This document shows positions 42,202 to 52,305 of a stretch of DNA of 64,000 nt, in pieces. The stretch lies in the NCBI GenBank assembly GCA_021740845.1, contig JAIOYZ010000001.1:273246-337245 (forward strand), written 5' to 3'. The notes under the pieces were generated by a model. That model was not told where the DNA came from. It made no database searches and saw only the letters and a list, made by a program, of their open reading frames with translations. How positions within the stretch are numbered: position 1 is the first letter of the stretch; every line of letters starts with the position of its first letter. Source of the stretch: Bacteroidia bacterium (lineage in GTDB: Bacteria > Bacteroidota > Bacteroidia > UKL13-3). The position numbers were made by a program, and so were the translations under genes.

Positions 42202-45200
42202 ATGAAAATAAAAAAGACTGGATTTGGTTTGAACCTATTGATTGCAATTTTATTTGCCATTCTTTTTGCATTCCAAACTCAAGCTCAAAATAAATATGGA
42301 TTTGAGTGGATTAGAACCTATCAACCCTATTTAAAAATTAAGGTTAATCAAAAGGGTTTATTTAAAATTGATTCAGCCGCATTGTCTGCGTGGAATGGCA
42401 AAAATCCTCGGAAGTTTCAATTGTTTAAGAATGGTAAAGAGCAAGCTATTTTTGTTGCAGGTGAAAGCGATGGGGTTTTTAATGCCAATGATTTTATTGA
42501 ATTTTATGGTACTCCAAATGATGGAAGTTTAGATCAGTTTTTATACAGAACAAATGCCGAACAACCGCAAATGTTTAGGAGTATTTTTTCGGATACGGGC
42601 ATTTATTTTCTAACTATTTTACCAGATACCTCTTTGGTTCAGCCCTTACGTATTTCTGCCTTCACAGATATAGATTATGGTAATTATACGCCGGAACCCA
42701 AACTTGTAATAACTCAACAAGTTGTTCCTCAAGAAGATTATTATTACGGCGCCTACCTGGCTGCAGATGAAAAATATTACCTATCAGAATATGGCGATGC
42801 AGAAGGAATGATGAGTGCGTTGATTGGTCAGGGGCAAAGTAGATATTATACCTTTCAAACACCATTTGCCACAAATGGAATTTCCGCCGAAGCTGAAATA
42901 AAAATCATTGGTGCCTCAGATTTTTTTCTTCCCAATGCCACTCAAGCCAACCACCATGTTAAGATTTTTACTATTGCAAATAATCAAACTCCAGTCTTAA
43001 TAATTGATACCACTTTTAGAGGTTATGGTGAACAGAAATTTACAAGAAGCATTCTTAGTACTCAATTAGGAGATTCAACTCGTTTCTTGGTACAAGTAAT
43101 TAATGATATAGGTGTAAGTAGCGATTTTATTGGAGTTTCTTATATTCAACTTTCGTATACTCGAAACTCGTTTTTCAATGGAAGTAAACTAGAAGAATGT
43201 CTTTTAAATACCAGTATTTCGGGAGCCAAAACTTTACTTCAGGTAAATAATTTTATTGGGTCTGAACCAATTCTTTGGGATTTGAAAACCAACAGTAGGG
43301 CAGTGGGTACAAAAAATTCCAATCAAGCTCAATTCTTACTTCCTTTTTCATCTGGATTAAGAACCTTGGTTCTTGCAGATGGGCAAACTAATTTATCTAG
43401 CAGCCAATTGTTGCCCATTAGTTTTGTTGCTCCAAATCCAAATAATAACTATCAATATTTATTGATTTCAAATAAGCAATTGCAAAACTCTGCAGAGAAT
43501 TATAGGACTTATAGAAGTAATAAATACAAAACATATTTGGCATATGCAGAAGACTTATCAGATTATTATTGCTTTGGAAATTTTCACCCATTAGCTATTA
43601 GAAAATTTTGTGAGCATGTTTACAAAGAGCAAGCCACTCCACCTCAATTTCTTTTGCTTTTGGGTAGGGGCTATCAAAATAATTTATTAAAAGCTGATCC
43701 CAGAAACAACGCGTTAAATTTGGTTCCCGCATTGGGTGTTCCATCTTCGGATAATTTATTTACCAATGGATTTACACTCACAAACGGTGCACCTGCCATT
43801 GCAACTGGAAGGATTCCTGCCAGCACAAATACAGAGGCAAACAATTATTTGCAAAAAATAATTTACCTTGAAACCAACTCAGATTCAATTCAAAACTGGC
43901 GTAAACATTATCTGCATTTGAGCGGTGGTTCTTATGAATCTCAGCAAGTATCCTTTAAAAATCAATTGGCTTATTTGGGGAACTTTGTAAAAGATAAACC
44001 AATTGGAGGCGATGTGTTTTCTTATTACAAAAGTTCTACTGCACCTACAGATAATAATTTGGAAGGCAAACTCATAGGACATTTAAACGATGGGGTAAAC
44101 TTTATGACTTTTTATGGTCATGGTTCTTTAACCGTTTTGGATATGAGTTTCGGGGGGATTAATGATTTATTGCCAAACCATCATACCGCTTTTTATTATT
44201 TCAATGGCTGCAATATTGGAAATGCCAACGATGTGGATCCATTAGGAACAGGTTTGGTTTATGGCAAAGATTATATCTGTGCAGATGCCAAAGGTGCAAT
44301 AGGTTGGTTGGCTCATACCAACTTCACTTTTACTAATCATTTGGAATACCAAATGGAACAGTTATACAACCAATTTAGTTACCAGAAATATGGAAAAGAA
44401 ATTGGCTTACAAATAAAAGCAGCCTTGGAAGTTACCTCCCAAACCAATGAAGCTTTTGCTCGTTCTCATGCTTTGCAATTATTGCTTCAAGGAGATCCAG
44501 CTTTAACTTTATATTCACCTAGTAAGCCTGATTATAAAATTGCCAACGAAGATTTATTTATCTCTCCATCCAACGCCTCGGTTCAAAACGATTCTTTTGC
44601 AGTTGGAATAATATTACACAATTTAGCAAAGGCGCAAATTGATACTCTTGAAATAAAAGTTACTCGCAAATTACCCGACAATTCCATTATCGAGTATTTA
44701 CTTTCCCCTATCATGGGTCCTAATTATTTGGATACCGTCTACGCTTGGATCAAACCATTATTAAAAAAAGATATTGGCAACAATCAGTTCGATGTAGAAA
44801 TAAATCCTGCCAAAAAGATTGATGAAATTGCTTTTACCAATAACCAAGCAAGTATCAATTACTTCCTTCCGGGAAGTGGTTTGCAAGCGATTTTGCCTTC
44901 ACAATACGCAATTATTTCTTCGGATACCGTTTCGCTTTTGGTTCAAAACAATAATTTATTTGCCGAAGCCAATGAGTATTTGTTTGAAATTGATACCAGT
45001 TTAGCCTTTTTAGAAACTAGTTCTTTTTATAGAAAGAGTGAGGTAATTACGGCCAATCATATAGCCAAATGGGATGTGCCTTTAGCTGCTAATGATTCAA
45101 TGGTTTACTATTGGCGCGCTAAATTGAATCTCCCCGAGGCCGAGGGTGGAATATGGGTTACACAGAGTTTTGTTCACATAAACCTAGGACCAGAAGGTTG

Positions 45201-47235
45201 GCATCAACGCAAGTATCAGCAGATTAGAAATGCTAGTGCCCAAACTTTTATCGAGTTTAATGATACAACGAGTAAAATTGAGTTTAGTAATAATGAATTA
45301 GTATTAGGGATTGAGAACAGACGTTGGGATCACAGAAGGATGGGAGTGGTAATTCCTTATTTATTAAATGCAGGTGTTGGAACATGTATTTCGCAAGGAA
45401 CAGTTGTTTTAGTATTTGAACCTTTCCAAGTTGATTTTCCTTATGAACTGCCAAATTACCCTTTTAATTGTGCCTTCGTTCAAAGTAATAAACACGACCA
45501 AAGTATTCGCTATTATTCCTTTAATACCAATTTGCTTTCTGGAGAGCAAGAATTGGCTAGACTTATTGATTCAATCCCTGAAGGATATTATGTAGCTATG
45601 TTTTCGAGGTATAGCACCAATATTCAAAATTGGGCTCCAAGCACAAAGGCTTTATTCGGTAAAATTGGTTCTCAAAAAGTAGAACATATTCAAAGTCAAA
45701 ATACAGCTTGGGCTTTAATTGGTAAGAAGGGTGAGCCACTTGGATTTGCAACAGAAGACACCGTAATTAATAATACGCTTCCTTCAACTTTACCTCCTTT
45801 GCAATCCGACATTCAAGATGAAAATTATTTGCGAATTAAAAGAAATATAAAACTTAAATGGTACCAAGGAAATTTTGTTTCAGCACCAATTGGTCCTGCC
45901 CAAAAATACAATGAAATTAACCTAAATATTCGTGAAGAAGATCCAGTAATTTCTGGCAGATGGTGGCTTAATGTTTTGGGTATAACTAGCACAGGAAAAG
46001 ATACTGTTTTGATGGCAAATCAAACCTCCAATAGAATTGATATTAGCTGGATAAATTCAAAGAATATTCCTTTTATAAAATTACAGTTTAATTGTGTGGA
46101 TAGTACTTACCGCACACCTCACCAAATAGATTTTTGGCAAGTTAGTTTTGAGCCAACACCAGAGTTAAGCGTGGATATAAATAAGCAATATGCTTTTCAT
46201 TCGGAGGTATTATCTCAGGGCGATACTTTGTTGTTGAGCTTGCCTATGATTAATTTGGGTAAACGAACTATTGATACTACTTATGCATCGCTCGAAATTT
46301 CGGATGCCAATAGGTTAATTCCTTTCTCAAAACTGGTAAAAGTGCCTCCAATTGGTTCAGGCCAAAATTACGTTTTGAACCAAAAAATACCGACCCATAT
46401 TTTGCAAGGTATCAATAGCCTTCAGATAAATTTAAACGCCAATAAGGAACCGGTAGAAAGGACTTATTTGAATAATTTTTATAAGAAATCCTTTCTGGTA
46501 AATGGTGATATTGCCAATCCATATTTGGAGGTAACCTTTGATGGAAAGCGAATCATGAATAGAGATTTTGTTTCTCCTACTCCAAGTATTCGTATTAGTT
46601 CAACCGATAAAAATGCCTTCCTATTACAAAAAGATACCAGCACTTTTGAGTTGTATTTATTACGTCCCAAAACTTTGGATTACGAGCGTGTAAATTTGAA
46701 CAGCAGTGAAGTGCAATTTATTCCTGCAGTAGAAGGAAAAAATGAAGCTATGTTGCTCTACCAGCCAGAAAAATTACCTGATGGCATTTATTCATTAAAG
46801 GTTCAAGCTATAGATGCTAGTGGAAACAAAGCTGGAGTAAATGATTACGAAATCGACTTCAATGTTTTAAATAAGAGTACCATTTCACAGTTCTATCCTT
46901 ATCCAAATCCTTTTACCACTCAGATGCGTTTTGTATATACGCTAACGGGTTCTAAAATTCCAGATCAATTGTTAATTCGTATTTTAACCATTAATGGTAA
47001 AATAGTACGTGAAATTCGCAAAGATGAGTTTGGTCCCATGTATTTTGGTAGCAATGTAAGTGAGTTTGCATGGGATGGCACCGATCAATATGGAGATAGA
47101 TTAGCAAATGGGGTTTACCTTTACCAAGTATTCACAAAAATTGAAGGAAATTCCATCGAAAACAGAGGAACCAATGCCAAAGAGGAGGCTACTTTTTTTG
47201 TAAATGGTACGGGGAAAATTTATTTAATGAAATAG
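42202..47235 (+). CDS. Large C25 gingipain-family peptidase, PorU2-like T9SS sortase candidate
   Basis: A 1677-residue exported protein: signal peptide (about 28 residues), a beta-rich N-terminal propeptide-like part, then a C25 peptidase domain with the catalytic His640 ('FYGHGSLTVLDM') and Cys670 ('FYYFNGCNIGN'). Long beta-sandwich regions follow, and the end ('FYPYPNPFTTQMRF...NGKIVREI...FAWDGTDQYGDRLANGVYLYQV') is a FlgD-like/T9SS sorting-type fold. It is larger than the PorU sortase of Porphyromonas (about 1150). It fits the group called PorU2, which may process cargo of type IX secretion. The role as sortase is inference. Confidence 0.8.
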   Translation: MKIKKTGFGLNLLIAILFAILFAFQTQAQNKYGFEWIRTYQPYLKIKVNQKGLFKIDSAALSAWNGKNPRKFQLFKNGKEQAIFVAGESDGVFNANDFIEFYGTPNDGSLDQFLYRTNAEQPQMFRSIFSDTGIYFLTILPDTSLVQPLRISAFTDIDYGNYTPEPKLVITQQVVPQEDYYYGAYLAADEKYYLSEYGDAEGMMSALIGQGQSRYYTFQTPFATNGISAEAEIKIIGASDFFLPNATQANHHVKIFTIANNQTPVLIIDTTFRGYGEQKFTRSILSTQLGDSTRFLVQVINDIGVSSDFIGVSYIQLSYTRNSFFNGSKLEECLLNTSISGAKTLLQVNNFIGSEPILWDLKTNSRAVGTKNSNQAQFLLPFSSGLRTLVLADGQTNLSSSQLLPISFVAPNPNNNYQYLLISNKQLQNSAENYRTYRSNKYKTYLAYAEDLSDYYCFGNFHPLAIRKFCEHVYKEQATPPQFLLLLGRGYQNNLLKADPRNNALNLVPALGVPSSDNLFTNGFTLTNGAPAIATGRIPASTNTEANNYLQKIIYLETNSDSIQNWRKHYLHLSGGSYESQQVSFKNQLAYLGNFVKDKPIGGDVFSYYKSSTAPTDNNLEGKLIGHLNDGVNFMTFYGHGSLTVLDMSFGGINDLLPNHHTAFYYFNGCNIGNANDVDPLGTGLVYGKDYICADAKGAIGWLAHTNFTFTNHLEYQMEQLYNQFSYQKYGKEIGLQIKAALEVTSQTNEAFARSHALQLLLQGDPALTLYSPSKPDYKIANEDLFISPSNASVQNDSFAVGIILHNLAKAQIDTLEIKVTRKLPDNSIIEYLLSPIMGPNYLDTVYAWIKPLLKKDIGNNQFDVEINPAKKIDEIAFTNNQASINYFLPGSGLQAILPSQYAIISSDTVSLLVQNNNLFAEANEYLFEIDTSLAFLETSSFYRKSEVITANHIAKWDVPLAANDSMVYYWRAKLNLPEAEGGIWVTQSFVHINLGPEGWHQRKYQQIRNASAQTFIEFNDTTSKIEFSNNELVLGIENRRWDHRRMGVVIPYLLNAGVGTCISQGTVVLVFEPFQVDFPYELPNYPFNCAFVQSNKHDQSIRYYSFNTNLLSGEQELARLIDSIPEGYYVAMFSRYSTNIQNWAPSTKALFGKIGSQKVEHIQSQNTAWALIGKKGEPLGFATEDTVINNTLPSTLPPLQSDIQDENYLRIKRNIKLKWYQGNFVSAPIGPAQKYNEINLNIREEDPVISGRWWLNVLGITSTGKDTVLMANQTSNRIDISWINSKNIPFIKLQFNCVDSTYRTPHQIDFWQVSFEPTPELSVDINKQYAFHSEVLSQGDTLLLSLPMINLGKRTIDTTYASLEISDANRLIPFSKLVKVPPIGSGQNYVLNQKIPTHILQGINSLQINLNANKEPVERTYLNNFYKKSFLVNGDIANPYLEVTFDGKRIMNRDFVSPTPSIRISSTDKNAFLLQKDTSTFELYLLRPKTLDYERVNLNSSEVQFIPAVEGKNEAMLLYQPEKLPDGIYSLKVQAIDASGNKAGVNDYEIDFNVLNKSTISQFYPYPNPFTTQMRFVYTLTGSKIPDQLLIRILTINGKIVREIRKDEFGPMYFGSNVSEFAWDGTDQYGDRLANGVYLYQVFTKIEGNSIENRGTNAKEEATFFVNGTGKIYLMK

Positions 47236-47361: not shown

Positions 47362-47778
47362 ATGACAGCACCTAAAGTTGGAGACGTGTTTACCCACGAC
47401 ATCACTTACACCCAAGAACAAGTTAATATGTATGCCCAAATTAGCGGCGATACCAATCCTTTACACGTAAATCAAGAAGTTGGAAGCGCCAGCATGTTTG
47501 GAAAATGTATCATTCACGGACATTTTAGCGCAAGCGTGTTTACCAAAATTTTTGGAACCTTATTATTTCCAGAAGGCCAAATTTACATGAAGCAAAATAC
47601 AACTTTCTTAAAACCAATGTTTGTTGAAACTCCTTATCAAGCGGTAATAACCGTAAAAGAAGTTTTCCCAGAAAAGAACAGAGTTTTATTTGAAACCAAA
47701 GTTGTAGATGTAGCAACAGGTGCAGATACCATTACCGGTGAAGCTTTGTTGATGAATAAAAAACATTACGTTTGGTAA
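47362..47778 (+). CDS. phaJ: (R)-specific enoyl-CoA hydratase, MaoC/PhaJ-like
   Basis: A 138-residue single hot-dog domain protein. The hydratase-2 motif with catalytic Asp30 and His35 is visible in 'ISGDTNPLHVN', followed by 'HGHFSASVF'. PhaJ turns trans-2-enoyl-CoA from fatty-acid oxidation into (R)-3-hydroxyacyl-CoA, the substrate of PHA synthase. The MaoC fold also occurs in other roles, but the neighbouring PHA synthase genes support PhaJ. It has its own terminator, with about 340 bp to the next gene. Confidence 0.82.
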   Translation: MTAPKVGDVFTHDITYTQEQVNMYAQISGDTNPLHVNQEVGSASMFGKCIIHGHFSASVFTKIFGTLLFPEGQIYMKQNTTFLKPMFVETPYQAVITVKEVFPEKNRVLFETKVVDVATGADTITGEALLMNKKHYVW

Positions 47779-47810
47779 TAAATTAGGGTAATTAATTCCT
47801 CAATGGCCTA

Positions 47811-47848
47811 AATCCTGAATCAAAAAAATTGGTTCAGGATTTTTTTTG
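47811..47848 (+). terminator. Intrinsic terminator after the phaJ-like gene
   Basis: Arms ATCCTGAA (about 47812) and TTCAGGAT (47833-47840) around a 13-base loop, followed by a TTTTTTT run. The gap 47779-48121 (343 bp) otherwise holds a half-copy of the dispersed element (TTTTGAACC near 47855), an AT-rich stretch and the phaE promoter. Confidence 0.8.
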
Positions 47849-48033
47849 TTCGTTTTGAACCAAAAAATATTTTAAAAAAAAAATTAAAGAATATGAATTT
47901 TTTACGCAGGATTTTGCCTTTTGTGCACCAGAAATTATTTATTTTTTTCCTTAGTTGATTAATGTCAGCTAAATTTCTTCCTTAGATAGTGGCTTGTTTG
48001 AGCCCTATTGATGATAATTTAATGCAGATAGCA

Positions 48034-48062
48034 TTGAAAATAAAGAATATGTACTAATTTTG
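48034..48062 (+). promoter_or_regulatory. Promoter of phaE
   Basis: TTG at 48034-48036, 18 bases, then TAATTTTG at 48055-48062: a complete match to the Bacteroidota promoter consensus, giving a leader of about 50 bases before the phaE ATG. Confidence 0.72.
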
Positions 48063-48121
48063 CGCCCGATTTCAGGACCCAAACTGATCTCCAATGAAAA
48101 ACAATTATATTAAATAATACT

Positions 48122-49426
48122 ATGGAAAACAAGAACATGTTTGAATCTTTTGCAGATATGCAAAAACAAGCAGCCGAAACTTTTACAAATGCAGCCGAAA
48201 ATATGCAAAAAGCTATGAACGGTGCGCCTGTAGATTTTAATTCTGATATCTTCAAAAAATGGTATGATAGCCAAATGGCTTGGTTCAATCAAGCTCAAGG
48301 TGAAAACAAAAATGTTCAATCTTTTGAGTTCTTCAATAACTGGATGACCCAACAAATGGAAATGGCTAAAAACTGGCAAGAAATGAGCAAAAATGCATTC
48401 TCTAGCATTCCTCAAATGAACAACATGAACGCAGAAATGGGTAATATGATGAATATGTTCAATTCTTGGAAAGATTCTTTGTCGAGCACTTATTCTGAAA
48501 TGATGAATAATATGAACAACGGAACTGCTAAAAATTCTTTCTCTGGTTTATTCAACAATGCAGAAATGTACATGAAAATGTATGAATTAATGATGCCTAT
48601 GATGAAGAGCTTGAACGATAAGACTTATACTCCTGAAATGTTCAAACAAATGTTTAACAATGAAATGTACAAAAACATGATGGACAAAATGTTCAACATG
48701 CAACCTGATTTCATGAAAAACATGATGGAAAACATGAACGTTTCTTCTAAAGATGCAATGGGTAAAATGATGGATATGAACAAAAATATGTTCGATACCA
48801 TGAAGAACAACATGACTTCTCAAATGGGAAACATGATGCCTAATGATATGTTTGGTTCTATGTACAGCAACTACACAAACATGTACAACCAAATGAACAA
48901 TGCATTTGCTCCTTTAACTAAATTAATGCCTGTTAACGGTACTACTCAAAACATGGATGCCATGAAAGAAATGAGTAATATGTTAACTGCTTATAACATG
49001 AAGAATAGCCAAATGCAATACATGATGTATACCACTGGCTTAAAAGCAATGGAGAATTTCTCTGAAAACCTTTACTCAAAAATGCGTAACGGTGAAGACA
49101 TGAAAAACTTCAATAACCTTTACCAAGATTTCTTAGCTAACTACGATAAAGAATTTATCGCTTTATACGAAACCGACGAATATTCTAAGTTAATGGGTGA
49201 AGTTAGTGCTATGCAATTAACTTTAAAGAAAAACATCGAAAAGCAATTGGAAAAATCAATGAGCAACTTGCCTTTGATTAACCGTAGCGAAATGGATGAG
49301 TTATACCAAACTATCCACGATTTGAAAAAACGTATCAATATGTTAGAAAAACAATTGGATACAGACGTAATAGTAGAAGAGCCTGCAAAAGCTGCTCCTG
49401 CTAAAAAAGCGGCTAAAAACGCATAA
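48122..49426 (+). CDS. phaE: PhaE-like subunit of class III PHA synthase, methionine-rich
   Basis: A 434-residue soluble protein without signal peptide. The N-terminus 'SFADMQKQAAETFTNAAENMQKAM' is phasin-like, and the C-terminal 'LPLINRSEMDELYQTIHDLKKRINMLEKQ' matches the hallmark helix of PhaE, the non-catalytic partner of PhaC. The middle (about residues 90-330) is extraordinarily rich in methionine and asparagine: about 68 Met in 434 residues by hand count. A Lys/Ala-rich tail 'AKAAPAKKAAKNA' ends the protein, like the nucleoid-binding tails of some PHA granule proteins. It has its own strong promoter and precedes phaC. Confidence 0.82.
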   Translation: MENKNMFESFADMQKQAAETFTNAAENMQKAMNGAPVDFNSDIFKKWYDSQMAWFNQAQGENKNVQSFEFFNNWMTQQMEMAKNWQEMSKNAFSSIPQMNNMNAEMGNMMNMFNSWKDSLSSTYSEMMNNMNNGTAKNSFSGLFNNAEMYMKMYELMMPMMKSLNDKTYTPEMFKQMFNNEMYKNMMDKMFNMQPDFMKNMMENMNVSSKDAMGKMMDMNKNMFDTMKNNMTSQMGNMMPNDMFGSMYSNYTNMYNQMNNAFAPLTKLMPVNGTTQNMDAMKEMSNMLTAYNMKNSQMQYMMYTTGLKAMENFSENLYSKMRNGEDMKNFNNLYQDFLANYDKEFIALYETDEYSKLMGEVSAMQLTLKKNIEKQLEKSMSNLPLINRSEMDELYQTIHDLKKRINMLEKQLDTDVIVEEPAKAAPAKKAAKNA

Positions 49427-49451
49427 AGTTTAGGGTTTGTTTATATCTAAG

Positions 49452-49492
49452 GCCGCAGATTTAGGTTAACGCCTGATTTCTGTGGCTTTTTT
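49452..49492 (+). terminator. Terminator-like hairpin between phaE and phaC
   Basis: Arms GCCGCAGA (49452-49459) and TCTGTGGC (49479-49486) pair with one G-U, an inner AGG/CCT stem adds to it, and a TTTTTT run follows. It lies 26 bases after the phaE stop and about 50 bases before the phaC start. No promoter was seen between it and phaC. Confidence 0.7.
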
Positions 49493-49541
49493 ATTAACTT
49501 ATTTTTCTATAAATCGCTTCATTAAAATAATATTACATACT

Positions 49542-50597
49542 ATGAATAATTTGAACTTTTCGGAAATGATGGATGAACTTCACACCACTAGCCAAAAGAT
49601 GGTGAAAGGATATGAAATTTTGTCCCAAATGGAGGAGGTAGAAGTTGCTACCACTCCTAAAGAATTGGTTTGGCAAAACGACTTGGTAAAACTTTACCAC
49701 TACAAACGTGATACTCCTGCTAAAAGCAAAATACCTGTTTTGGTTTCTTTTGCAATCATGAACCGTCATGATGTATTGGATTTGCAACCAGATAGATCTT
49801 TAATGAAAAAATTATTGGACGAAGGTTTGGATATCTATATCATGGATTGGGGTTATCCAAAACAACAGCATAAATTCTTAACCATGGAAGATTATATCCT
49901 AGGTTTTATGAACGATGCAGTTGATTTTGTTCGCAAGTCGACCAAAAGTCCTAAAATTCATAAAATGGGAATTTGCCAAGGTGGAACTTTCAGTGCCATT
50001 TACGCTTCTTTATTCCCAGAAAAATTAAAATCATTAACCGTTTATGTTACTCCTTTCGATTTTGGTGGTAACGAATGCATGCTATACAAATGGACCAAAG
50101 ACATCGATGTAGATGTAATGGTTGATAGCTTAGGAATTATTCCTGCTGATATGTTAAACGCTGGTTTTGGTTCTTTAAAACCTAGTGCTGATATGAGCAA
50201 ATACCTAGGAATGGTGGATGTAATGCAAGATGAAGCCAAATTGGCTAATTTCTTACGCATGGAAAAATGGAAAAATGATTGTCCTGATTTAGCTGGTGAA
50301 ATGTTCCGTAAATACATCAAAGATCTTTGGAGAGATAACAAATTAATCAAAGGTGAATTTGAATTAGGTGGTCATTTGGTAAACCTTAAAAACATTACCA
50401 TGCCTTTCCTAAATATTTATGCTACAGAAGACAATATTATTCCTAATACTTCTACCAAACCTGTTATGAAATTAATTGGTTCAAAAGACAAAGAAGAATA
50501 TGCTTTCCCAGGCGGACATATTGGTGTGTTTGTAGGTGGTAAATCGCAAAAAGAATTAGGTCCTAAAGTTGCCCAGTGGGTTATTGATAGAAGCTAA
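49542..50597 (+). CDS. phaC: Class III poly(3-hydroxyalkanoate) synthase PhaC
   Basis: Polymerises (R)-3-hydroxyacyl-CoA into PHA storage granules. It is 351 residues, the size of the class III enzyme from Allochromatium (about 355). The triad is visible at nearly the same positions as in that enzyme: Cys145 in the lipase-like box 'GICQGG', Asp297 in 'ATEDNIIP' and His326 in 'GGHIGV'. The frame extends to 49482, but ATG 49542 (MNNLNFSEMM) gives the family length. It works as a complex with PhaE. The stop is followed by a terminator built from the dispersed element. Confidence 0.9.
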   Translation: MNNLNFSEMMDELHTTSQKMVKGYEILSQMEEVEVATTPKELVWQNDLVKLYHYKRDTPAKSKIPVLVSFAIMNRHDVLDLQPDRSLMKKLLDEGLDIYIMDWGYPKQQHKFLTMEDYILGFMNDAVDFVRKSTKSPKIHKMGICQGGTFSAIYASLFPEKLKSLTVYVTPFDFGGNECMLYKWTKDIDVDVMVDSLGIIPADMLNAGFGSLKPSADMSKYLGMVDVMQDEAKLANFLRMEKWKNDCPDLAGEMFRKYIKDLWRDNKLIKGEFELGGHLVNLKNITMPFLNIYATEDNIIPNTSTKPVMKLIGSKDKEEYAFPGGHIGVFVGGKSQKELGPKVAQWVIDRS

Positions 50598-50616
50598 TTA
50601 AACAGCAATAAAAAAT

Positions 50617-50650
50617 AAAAAAGTTGGTTCGGTTTGAACCAACTTTTTTT
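50617..50650. terminator. Bidirectional terminator built from the dispersed element
   Basis: Arms AAAAAAGTTGGTTC (50617-50630) and GAACCAACTTTTTT (50636-50649) are perfect complements, 14 bp, around the loop GGTTT. The central GGTTCGGTTTGAACC contains a full copy of the dispersed GGTTTGAACC element. T runs on both strands let it end phaC and the convergent polX. Confidence 0.88.
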
Positions 50651-52305
50651 TATGCCTTTTTCTTTGCAAAATGAGCTTCAATAAACTCTAAACTTTGCGC
50701 ATTGAAGCACATTTCTTTAGTTAAGCCGCCCTTACGTGCTACTTCTACCCCATAAAACATATCGTTGAAACCTTCCACTTCGTGCGCATCTGGATTGATG
50801 CTTATCATCACACCTTTGTTGAGCGCATAATCAATATATCTCCAATCCATATCCAAGCGATAAGGATTTGCATTTAGTTCCATTATAACGCCATTAGCGG
50901 CACAAGCATCAATAATTTTGAGGTGGTCTATTGGGTAACCTTCTCGCATTAATAATAACCTTCCAGTTGGGTGACCCAAAATTGTGGTATAAGGATTTTC
51001 AATAGCTGCAATTAACCTGCTCATTGCTTTTTCTTCTGTCATCTTTAAAATGCTATGTACGGAGGCAACTACATAATCAAACGACTTAAGAATTACCTGA
51101 CTATAATCCAAGTTACCATCGTATAAAATATCGCATTCTATTCCAGCAAATATTTTAAACTTGCCAGCTAGTTTTTGGTTCAACTTAGCAATTTCTTGTT
51201 GTTGTAATTCAACACGCTCTTCTGATAGACCATTGGCATAAAATGCACTTTTACTATGGTCTGCCATCCCCAAATATTGATAGCCTTTTTCTTGACAAAA
51301 CTTGGCCATAGTTTCAACCGTATGCAAACCATCACTCCAAGTAGAGTGGTTGTGTAATGGTCCGGTTAGGTCGGTAAATTCAATGAGTTTGGGGAGTTTG
51401 CCTGTTTGCGCTTTTTCAATTTCTCCAAGGTCTTCACGTAATTCAGAAACAATAAATGGCAATCCTGCTTTTGTATAAATTTCCTCTTCAGAGTTGAATG
51501 TATTTTGGTTTGAACCTAAAAGCGCCAATACTTTTTCGGTATGGGTTTGAACCGAACTGAGTTCAAATAATTTCCATGCAAATTCAGATGGAGTACAATA
51601 ATGAAGTTGCACCGAAAATCCATCAAAGGTAAAATGCCCATCTCCAGTGAATATGCCCGTTTCGGAAACTAATTCCGATGAAAAATCGGATTGGTTTTCT
51701 GTTGCGATAAGCAAATCTATTTGGTGCAATATTTCGCACTTTCTTCTGATTTCGCCACATAAAGAAACTTGTTTTGCTAAACTCAAAGTTTCTAGTTTTT
51801 TTACTAAAGCTTGAGCAATAGGATAGGCTTTGGCATAATGAAATTTATTAGCGCTAGCAAACATAAATTCAATTTGTTTGATAACTGCTTCCTGAGTTTT
51901 TAATCCAAAGCCTTTGAATTGTGCCAACCTATTTTCCTTGCAGGCGTAAAGCAATTCGCCAATAGATTCCACACCCATTTCTTTCCAAATAACTGCCACC
52001 TTTTTTGGACCAATACCTTTAATACGCATGATATCTCTTACGCCTTCCGGAGTAGCTTCAAGTAATTCACTTAGTTCTTTAAACGATTCGGTGGTGAATA
52101 TTTCATGGAGCTTTTGGGCAATGCTTTTACCAACTCCTTCCATGCCCTCCAATTCTTGCAAACTTTTGCCATACAAAGGCTCTGGCATTTTATCTATTCT
52201 AAAAGAAGCGGAGGCAAACGATTTTATCTTGAATGGATTTCCTCCATGCAATTCACTTAAATCGGCATAAAGTTTTAATAAATCGGCAATGTCTGAATTA
52301 GTCAT
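50650..52305 (-). CDS. polX: DNA polymerase X family protein with PHP domain
   Basis: A 551-residue repair polymerase. The N-terminal part has helix-hairpin-helix DNA-binding ('EGVGKSIAQKLHEIFTT', 'IKGIGPKKVAVIWKEMG') and polymerase-beta regions. The C-terminal 230 residues are a PHP metal-dependent phosphoesterase domain ('HNHSTWSDGLHTVETMAKFCQEKGYQYLGMADHSKS', 'NPDAHE'), which gives nuclease activity in Bacillus PolX. The palm motif normally holding paired aspartates seems altered: where 'DIDLL'-like is expected it reads 'QIDLLIATE'. Two dispersed-element copies lie inside (51507, 51544). Confidence 0.88.
   Translation of the reverse strand: MTNSDIADLLKLYADLSELHGGNPFKIKSFASASFRIDKMPEPLYGKSLQELEGMEGVGKSIAQKLHEIFTTESFKELSELLEATPEGVRDIMRIKGIGPKKVAVIWKEMGVESIGELLYACKENRLAQFKGFGLKTQEAVIKQIEFMFASANKFHYAKAYPIAQALVKKLETLSLAKQVSLCGEIRRKCEILHQIDLLIATENQSDFSSELVSETGIFTGDGHFTFDGFSVQLHYCTPSEFAWKLFELSSVQTHTEKVLALLGSNQNTFNSEEEIYTKAGLPFIVSELREDLGEIEKAQTGKLPKLIEFTDLTGPLHNHSTWSDGLHTVETMAKFCQEKGYQYLGMADHSKSAFYANGLSEERVELQQQEIAKLNQKLAGKFKIFAGIECDILYDGNLDYSQVILKSFDYVVASVHSILKMTEEKAMSRLIAAIENPYTTILGHPTGRLLLMREGYPIDHLKIIDACAANGVIMELNANPYRLDMDWRYIDYALNKGVMISINPDAHEVEGFNDMFYGVEVARKGGLTKEMCFNAQSLEFIEAHFAKKKA

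Follow-up and report, generated by a model that had tools for sequence, protein, structure and literature searches.

The phaE locus and its product

In the 64,000 nt stretch of DNA analysed here (the window), a gene for the PhaE subunit of a class III PHA synthase follows a phaJ-like gene and is itself followed, 115 nt downstream, by phaC; terminator-like hairpins stand on both sides of phaE (Table 1). The PhaC protein scores 414 bits against TIGR01836, for which the cut-off is 365. Further upstream, at 42202-47235, there is a PorU-like gene of 1677 aa, PorU being the type IX secretion sortase; its Peptidase_C25 match exceeds the cut-off, and FlgD_ig matches weakly close to the C terminus.

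Table 1. Features at the phaE locus, in window coordinates.
Feature	Position	Strand	Description
phaJ-like gene	47362..47778	+	MaoC-like (R)-enoyl-CoA hydratase, 138 aa; PF01575 63.8 bits, cut-off 27
Terminator-like hairpin, phaJ-like gene/phaE	47810..47842	+	14-pair stem, 4 G-C, with T-run
Promoter-like pair before phaE	48034..48062	+	TTG-N18-TAATTTTG, Bacteroidota-type
phaE	48122..49426	+	Class III PHA synthase subunit, 434 aa; 15.7 % Met, 14.3 % Asn; PF09712 65 bits
PhaE residues 1-330	48122..49111	+	Met-for-aliphatic part; Met 19.1 %, Ile+Leu+Val 4.5 %; helical Met spacing
PhaE residues 331-412	49112..49357	+	Conserved C-terminal helices, ordinary composition; Met 6.1 %, Ile+Leu+Val 23.2 %
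PhaE residues 413-434	49358..49423	+	Lys/Ala-rich tail, from sequence; low model confidence at 416-428
Terminator-like hairpin, phaE/phaC	49449..49492	+	With T-run; kept across many Bacteroidota
phaC	49542..50597	+	Class III PHA synthase catalytic subunit, 351 aa; ATG at 49542, mechanical ORF from GTG 49482

A preliminary description of this DNA had called the product PhaE-like, and this identity is borne out. The Pfam family PF09712 (PhaE) matches residues 74-408 with 65 bits against a cut-off of 25.7, a class III phaC adjoins the gene, and the same family matches all 67 PhaE representatives compared here with E 0.001 or better. The conserved C-terminal helices are also shared with the PhaE of class III PHA synthases. 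Unlike the NCBIfam class III PhaE subfamily, the window PhaE falls below the TIGR01834 cut-off (37.8 bits against 154.95), and at 434 aa it is larger than the PhaE of 20-40 kDa given in the available text of PMC8312272. That text also counts class III PhaC in 13 Bacteroidetes genomes, with Proteobacteria at 51.8 %, and an excerpt of PMC9304909 records PHA in some Saprospiraceae. The protein is not a member of the phasin family PF05597 (13.4 bits against a cut-off of 28.8, E 0.083), and neither the SRP54 M domain nor the Sgt2 C (STI1) domain is among its four Pfam hits listed at E 1 or below. PhaE was found in all 26 PhaC-bearing genomes searched, which were picked from 80 PhaC loci. Within the window's family PhaC is the more conserved of the two proteins, with 70-92 % identity to the window's copy and 35-79 % for PhaE; a tblastn search of plasmids with the window PhaE gave no match at E 0.01.

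The exact ORF count gives 68 Met and 62 Asn, and the coordinates, length and number of Met stated in the preliminary description were all exact. The concentration of Met that it had placed in residues 90-330 also holds, with 53 Met (22 %) there. Ile, Leu and Val together make up 8.5 % of the whole protein, and only 15 of them lie among residues 1-330. At the median Met content of the window (2.8 %, for 56 mechanical ORFs of at least 150 aa) about 12 Met would be expected for a protein of this length, and the binomial probability of at least 68 is 3e-30. The second-richest ORF is the adjoining phaC, at 5.9 %, and with this median a proteome-wide Met habit was rejected within the window. Copper-binding Met motifs were set aside, residues 90-330 being without His or Cys, and only two reverse-strand ORFs of at least 90 aa overlap phaE, each of 101 aa.

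Repeated Met-Met, Asn-Met and Met-Asn patterns had also been reported. Given the composition of the whole protein, Asn-Met is the sole enriched pair of the three (18 against 9.7 expected); Met-Met (9 against 10.7) and Met-Asn (9 against 9.7) are not above composition, and repeats of these two kinds were therefore rejected. The true Met pattern is helical spacing rather than dipeptide repeats. Within residues 75-330, two Met stand three (z 1.9) or four (z 3.7) positions apart more often than in shuffled sequences, and seldom 2, 5, 10 or 13 positions apart. When 20 members of the window's family are pooled, there is an excess at lags 3, 4, 8 and 11 and avoidance of 2, 5 and 6, with z values that are inflated because the sequences are related. 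The nonpolar residues of Met-poor Nitrospirota PhaE behave as the family Met does, with an excess at lags 3 and 4 and avoidance of 2, 5 and 6. This helical spacing argues against a plain low-complexity tract.

The AlphaFold2 model of the window PhaE is all-helical (mean pLDDT 66.7, pTM 0.53). Its confidence is high at 145-190 and about 250-380 but low at 1-140 and 191-240; ten-residue blocks with confidence below 60 cover 204 of the 434 residues. The middle part had been suggested to be flexible, with which the low-confidence stretches agree, although the helical fold and the two confident stretches speak against it. A model of a Met-poor Nitrospirota PhaE, built from 33 sequences (mean pLDDT 61.0), has the same order of helices in the C-terminal half, including a 50-residue helix. 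Clustering of nonpolar residues on one face reached p <0.05 by shuffling in only six of the 14 model helices; four of the six are in the N-part, and none of the six is a Met-rich helix of the stretch 134-213. Foldseek gave no match to the model at E 0.001 or better, and a fold relative was rejected, the VIA-align results being only generic helical bundles (Z <7) that are uninformative on function. Solved structures suggested as relatives by sequence, among them designed bundles and Vipp1, were not credible.

Towards the C terminus, E377 and P384 are invariant across the 67 PhaE sequences. The Lys-Ala tail, for which tethering of granules to DNA had been suggested, is present in the window PhaE, but only seven of 27 family members have at least 10 Lys+Ala among the last 20 residues.

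Methionine in place of aliphatic residues

Relatives were collected with an iterated profile built for the purpose, the scores of which carry large composition-bias corrections. Among 837 candidates in 180 loci it found 90 distinct ORFs (121 hits); a 155-aa ORF (L134, 927-1394) and a contig-edge fragment (L152) were left out, and a few of the final 88 PhaE (e.g. L032) remain truncated where a contig or locus ends. From the 81 complete ORFs, 69 representatives of <85 % identity were taken, of which 67 were aligned; two sequences of family f19 (L002 and L004) were too distant, at 11-12 % identity, and were omitted.

The 27 PhaE of the window's family contain 9.3-19.1 % Met (mean 14.3). They come from 64 genomes searched in the window's order, 27 of which have PF09712, and all 64 are of the window's family. 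A further 45 PhaE, reached mostly via Bacteroidota PhaC, range from 2.7 to 13.1 %, with 19 at 9 % or more; the PhaE of Chitinophagaceae bacterium IBVUCB1 has 13.1 %. Lower values are found in Taibaiella chishuiensis (6.4 %) and Edaphocola flava (7.0 %), the Taibaiella/Edaphocola group as a whole having 5.1-8.0 % although it lies inside the high-Met clade. Three PhaE of f48 have 5.5-8.2 %, three of f19 have 3.2-3.7 %, and two on alphaproteobacterial plasmids have 3.3 and 4.5 %. The window PhaE, at 15.7 % Met and 8.5 % Ile+Leu+Val, differs in composition from eight Nitrospirota PhaE, which have 2.8-6.4 % Met and 16.3-22.4 % Ile+Leu+Val. PhaE is rare in an even sample of the phylum (8 of 296 genomes, 7 over cut-off), and in an even Nitrospirota sample it occurs in 16 of 148 genomes, again with 7 over cut-off. 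The preliminary description had asked whether many PhaE of other phyla share the Met-rich core; none of the small sample of eight Nitrospirota and two alphaproteobacterial plasmid proteins does. Other Bacteroidota often have this composition too, which makes it a trait of the lineage rather than a peculiarity of the window genome.

One record titled Phycisphaerales (L108/L156) contains a PhaE with 11.6 % Met. Its PhaC is 67 % identical to that of the window and groups in the tree with PhaC from Bacteroidota, therefore the record is probably a mislabelled or contaminated bin, with transfer as the alternative.

Met stands where aliphatic residues stand in other PhaE. Across the 67 sequences Met and Ile+Leu+Val are opposed (rho -0.87; -0.83 for the 20 within the family and -0.80 for the 47 outside), and the relation remains in contrasts on the PhaC tree (-0.73, with none of 2000 sign-flip permutations as extreme) for the 63 PhaE with a PhaC partner, L016, L011, L005 and L006 having none. 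The sum of Met, Ile, Leu, Val and Phe is nearly equal in group means, 26.7 % outside the family and 29.5 % inside, with a full range of 23-32 %. Of the residues that the 17 PhaE with less than 6.5 % Met carry in the 62 columns where at least half of the 20 family members have Met, 60 % are Ile, Leu, Val, Met, Phe or Trp (background 30 %); Lys, Glu and Asp are rare there. At the 68 Met positions of the window PhaE, family members have on average Met in 65 % and a nonpolar residue, Tyr or Ala in 90 %.

This exchange is confined to residues 1-330 and ends at about residue 330. The N-part has on average 16.6 % Met and 5.9 % Ile+Leu+Val in the family against 4.5 and 17.6 % in six Nitrospirota PhaE; for the C-part (331-412) the values are 7.0 and 22.1 % against 4.1 and 22.6 %, and Ile+Leu+Val in three group means is 22.1, 23.5 and 22.6 %. 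An ordinary C-part within the same gene controls well for biases in codon use or in the genome. Purifying selection on the N-part is about as strong as on the C-part, with pairwise dN of 0.13-0.24 and 0.15-0.25, respectively, lower for the N-part in four of six pairs and slightly higher in two; omega, where defined, is 0.06-0.17, which is a guide only, dS being saturated or undefined in several of the six pairs.

Met content is negatively correlated with GC3 (rho -0.44), and base composition may therefore account for part of the trend. Mutational bias alone was rejected as the full explanation because the relation to Ile+Leu+Val survives when GC3 is held constant (-0.85) and because the C-part, encoded by the same gene, has an ordinary composition. 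The PhaC partner contains at most 7.4 % Met in 63 proteins; its Met content follows that of PhaE in the raw data (rho 0.49) but weakly in contrasts (0.19, a value equalled or exceeded in 16 % of permutations). Asn enrichment was rejected as a coupled trait, the raw rho of 0.73 falling to 0.30 in contrasts (6 % of permutations as extreme). Because PHB synthesis usually accompanies nutrient shortage, the saving of nutrients fails to explain a protein rich in sulphur and amide nitrogen.

Transcription signals and phasins

In the promoter-like pair before phaE, the -7 box occupies 48055-48062 and begins 67 nt upstream of the ATG; the consensus is the one known from Bacteroides promoters. A search for the box as TAnnTTTG found it in 25 of 26 distinct family regions upstream of phaE (2.7 expected) and the full pair in 18 of 26 (0.4 expected), and before the family phaC in none of 21 (2.9 expected); these expectations are from resampled sequences and overstate independence, the regions being related by descent. 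In all sets together, with phaE and phaC sorted automatically and some Nitrospirota phaC misfiled, the box precedes 29 of 45 phaE that are followed by phaC, 25 of 33 other phaE, five of 47 phaC that follow phaE (3.4 expected) and 17 of 59 other phaC (4.3 expected). The two family phaC that do not follow phaE (L042 and L043) are also without the box, therefore its absence before phaC is no proof of read-through.

The second hairpin is a recurrent feature of the phaE-phaC gap. A simple rule, applied to 36 distinct homologous gaps with lengths of 60-400 nt, found a hairpin with T-run in 28 (0.6 expected), 17 of 21 in the family and 11 of 15 elsewhere, and five of the eight misses (L020, L027, L029, L033 and L131) still fold a hairpin of -14.8 kcal/mol or better before a T-run. 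The terminator is not universal, because only one of 10 gaps shorter than 60 nt (L049) has such a hairpin. In other same-strand gaps of the window, 2 of 16 have one; the rule finds 4 in all 18, two of them flanking phaE. For 18 family gaps (all but L013, L023 and L031 of the 21), RNAalifold gives a consensus of 10 pairs, five of which have changes on both sides. Rfam models at gathering cut-offs gave nothing in 47700-50700.

On these sequence signals, the simplest reading is that phaE forms its own transcription unit and that phaC receives read-through; alternatively, phaC may use another, unrecognised type of promoter. A separate phaE unit with read-through to phaC would yield much PhaE, as a granule coat requires. 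In other Bacteroidota phaE and phaC are not adjacent on one strand; in the 26 PhaC-bearing genomes searched, phaE is often away from phaC, or nearby on the opposite strand (L094, L104, L107 and others). In one genus (L016, L017, L022 and L030, from genomes G339, G330, G331 and G332), no phaC follows phaE within the locus examined, and in G331 and G332 phaC is on another contig. The PhaC of L044 and L045 have ICQAG around the presumed catalytic Cys, where most have ICQGG.

No phasin of PF09361 exceeded the cut-off in the 24 genomes searched, which include 14 from the window's family, hence this Pfam family provides no contrast. PF05597 was over cut-off in none of the 14 window-family genomes, in all three f19 genomes with a Met-poor PhaE and in two of four Nitrospirota; both phasin families stayed under cut-off in three other Bacteroidota whose PhaE has 6.4-13.1 % Met (G017, G701 and G704). 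The direction of this distribution fits a PhaE that has taken on the role of a phasin, in a set of small numbers, diverse phasins and incomplete families. Sub-threshold PF05597 hits in the family (L187, L189 and L190) were not counted as phasins. At L187:1375-1683 and L189:1381-1689 a 102-aa ORF with weak PF05597 similarity stands directly before an ORF that, judged by eye, resembles an ABC1/UbiB kinase; in L190 no phasin-like ORF could be pinned down for the hit.

Lys/Ala tails are known from PhaM/PhaF-type proteins. With these and with the phasins of PF05597 and PF09361, the window PhaE has in common amphipathic helices, a Lys/Ala tail and possibly a place in the granule coat.

A possible role for the Met-rich helices

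The explanation preferred here, with a probability of about 0.45, is that this is a phasin-like PhaE whose Met-lined N-terminal helices wet the polyester and coat the granule, and which is made in excess of PhaC. Residues 1-330 would form amphipathic helices with their nonpolar faces converted from Ile, Leu and Val to Met, presenting a soft, adaptable hydrophobic surface that could hold nascent polyester and coat the granule. The ordinary C-terminal helices would carry out the task common to all PhaE, probably the binding of PhaC. Transcription from its own promoter, largely terminated before phaC, would leave PhaE in excess of the synthase. A granule-binding layer, as proposed in the preliminary description, is plausible in view of the helical Met spacing, the lack of a PF09361 or PF05597 phasin over cut-off in 14 genomes of the family and the separate transcription signals of phaE. 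The soft surface is favoured by analogy with Sgt2 and SRP, in which Met-rich helices bind hydrophobic clients through an adaptable surface, as described in the available text of PMC8010706. The SRP54 M domain and Sgt2 C domain would share Met-rich amphipathic helices of this kind with PhaE, although no sequence relation is seen and the proposed client of PhaE is a polyester, theirs a peptide helix.

The same substitution could have arisen by near-neutral drift, in which hydrophobic helix faces tolerate Met and a lineage-specific bias accumulates it with function unchanged. Such a process would account for the gradual change in Met and its seeming reversal in the Taibaiella/Edaphocola group, for the correlation with low GC3, and for the 68 Met positions of the window PhaE being 65 % Met and 90 % nonpolar, Tyr or Ala in the family. 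Drift is nevertheless rather unlikely, as Met and Ile+Leu+Val remain opposed at constant GC3, PhaE with 11-12 % Met exist at GC3 0.56-0.62, the C-part of the same gene has retained its aliphatic residues and the partner PhaC has remained at 7.4 % Met or below; by the codon table, moreover, an AT-rich bias favours Ile and Leu codons over ATG. The Met faces might instead serve only an interface of PhaE with PhaC or with itself and never touch the polymer. PhaE is an indispensable synthase subunit in haloarchaea according to the available text of PMC13038957, and the Met contents of the two proteins are related in the raw data; that relation fades in contrasts, however, PhaC is the more conserved partner, and this restricted role is very doubtful.

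A redox sensor or sink is a further candidate, in which clustered Met would be oxidised under stress and loosen PhaE assemblies or granule binding, like the Met-rich region of yeast Pbp1 (ataxin-2); polymer turnover would thereby depend on the redox state. The density of Met over residues 90-330 and the richness in Asn favour it, and in the portion of PMC8394241 available, oxidation of Met in Pbp1 disrupts droplets that Msr restores. The two proteins would have Met clusters and possibly a redox response in common; yet the Pbp1 region is described there as low-complexity and phase separating, whereas Met in the window PhaE follows helix periodicity at constrained hydrophobic positions, and a redox role is improbable. 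A bolder combination, and an improbable one taken as a whole, is that throughout one large Bacteroidota clade PhaE is synthase subunit and coat together, a liquid-like Met-bristle surfactant kept in excess by a conserved leaky terminator before phaC and with a grip set by redox state. Oxidation and reduction of Met would then release or tighten the hold of PhaE, and plastic storage would be set by redox state.

The phasin-like reading would concern a known protein, the PhaE subunit of class III PHB synthase; what is new is the variant of it with Met for aliphatic residues in the N-part. The matches listed in a search of the open literature included none that deals with a Met-rich PhaE or with a phaE-phaC terminator, which is weak evidence of novelty. 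To our knowledge, the help that PhaE gives to PhaC, and the coating of granules in class III organisms without recognised phasins, are poorly understood. The relatives compared here span about 3 % to 19 % Met at aligned positions, and the Met-normal C-part provides an internal control; this natural series makes it a testable question whether a Met-lined helix face is better at wetting polyester or is responsive to oxidation. Surfactant-like tags for bioplastic particles are a possible use, and a bacterial candidate is added to the Met-rich binders of hydrophobic clients.
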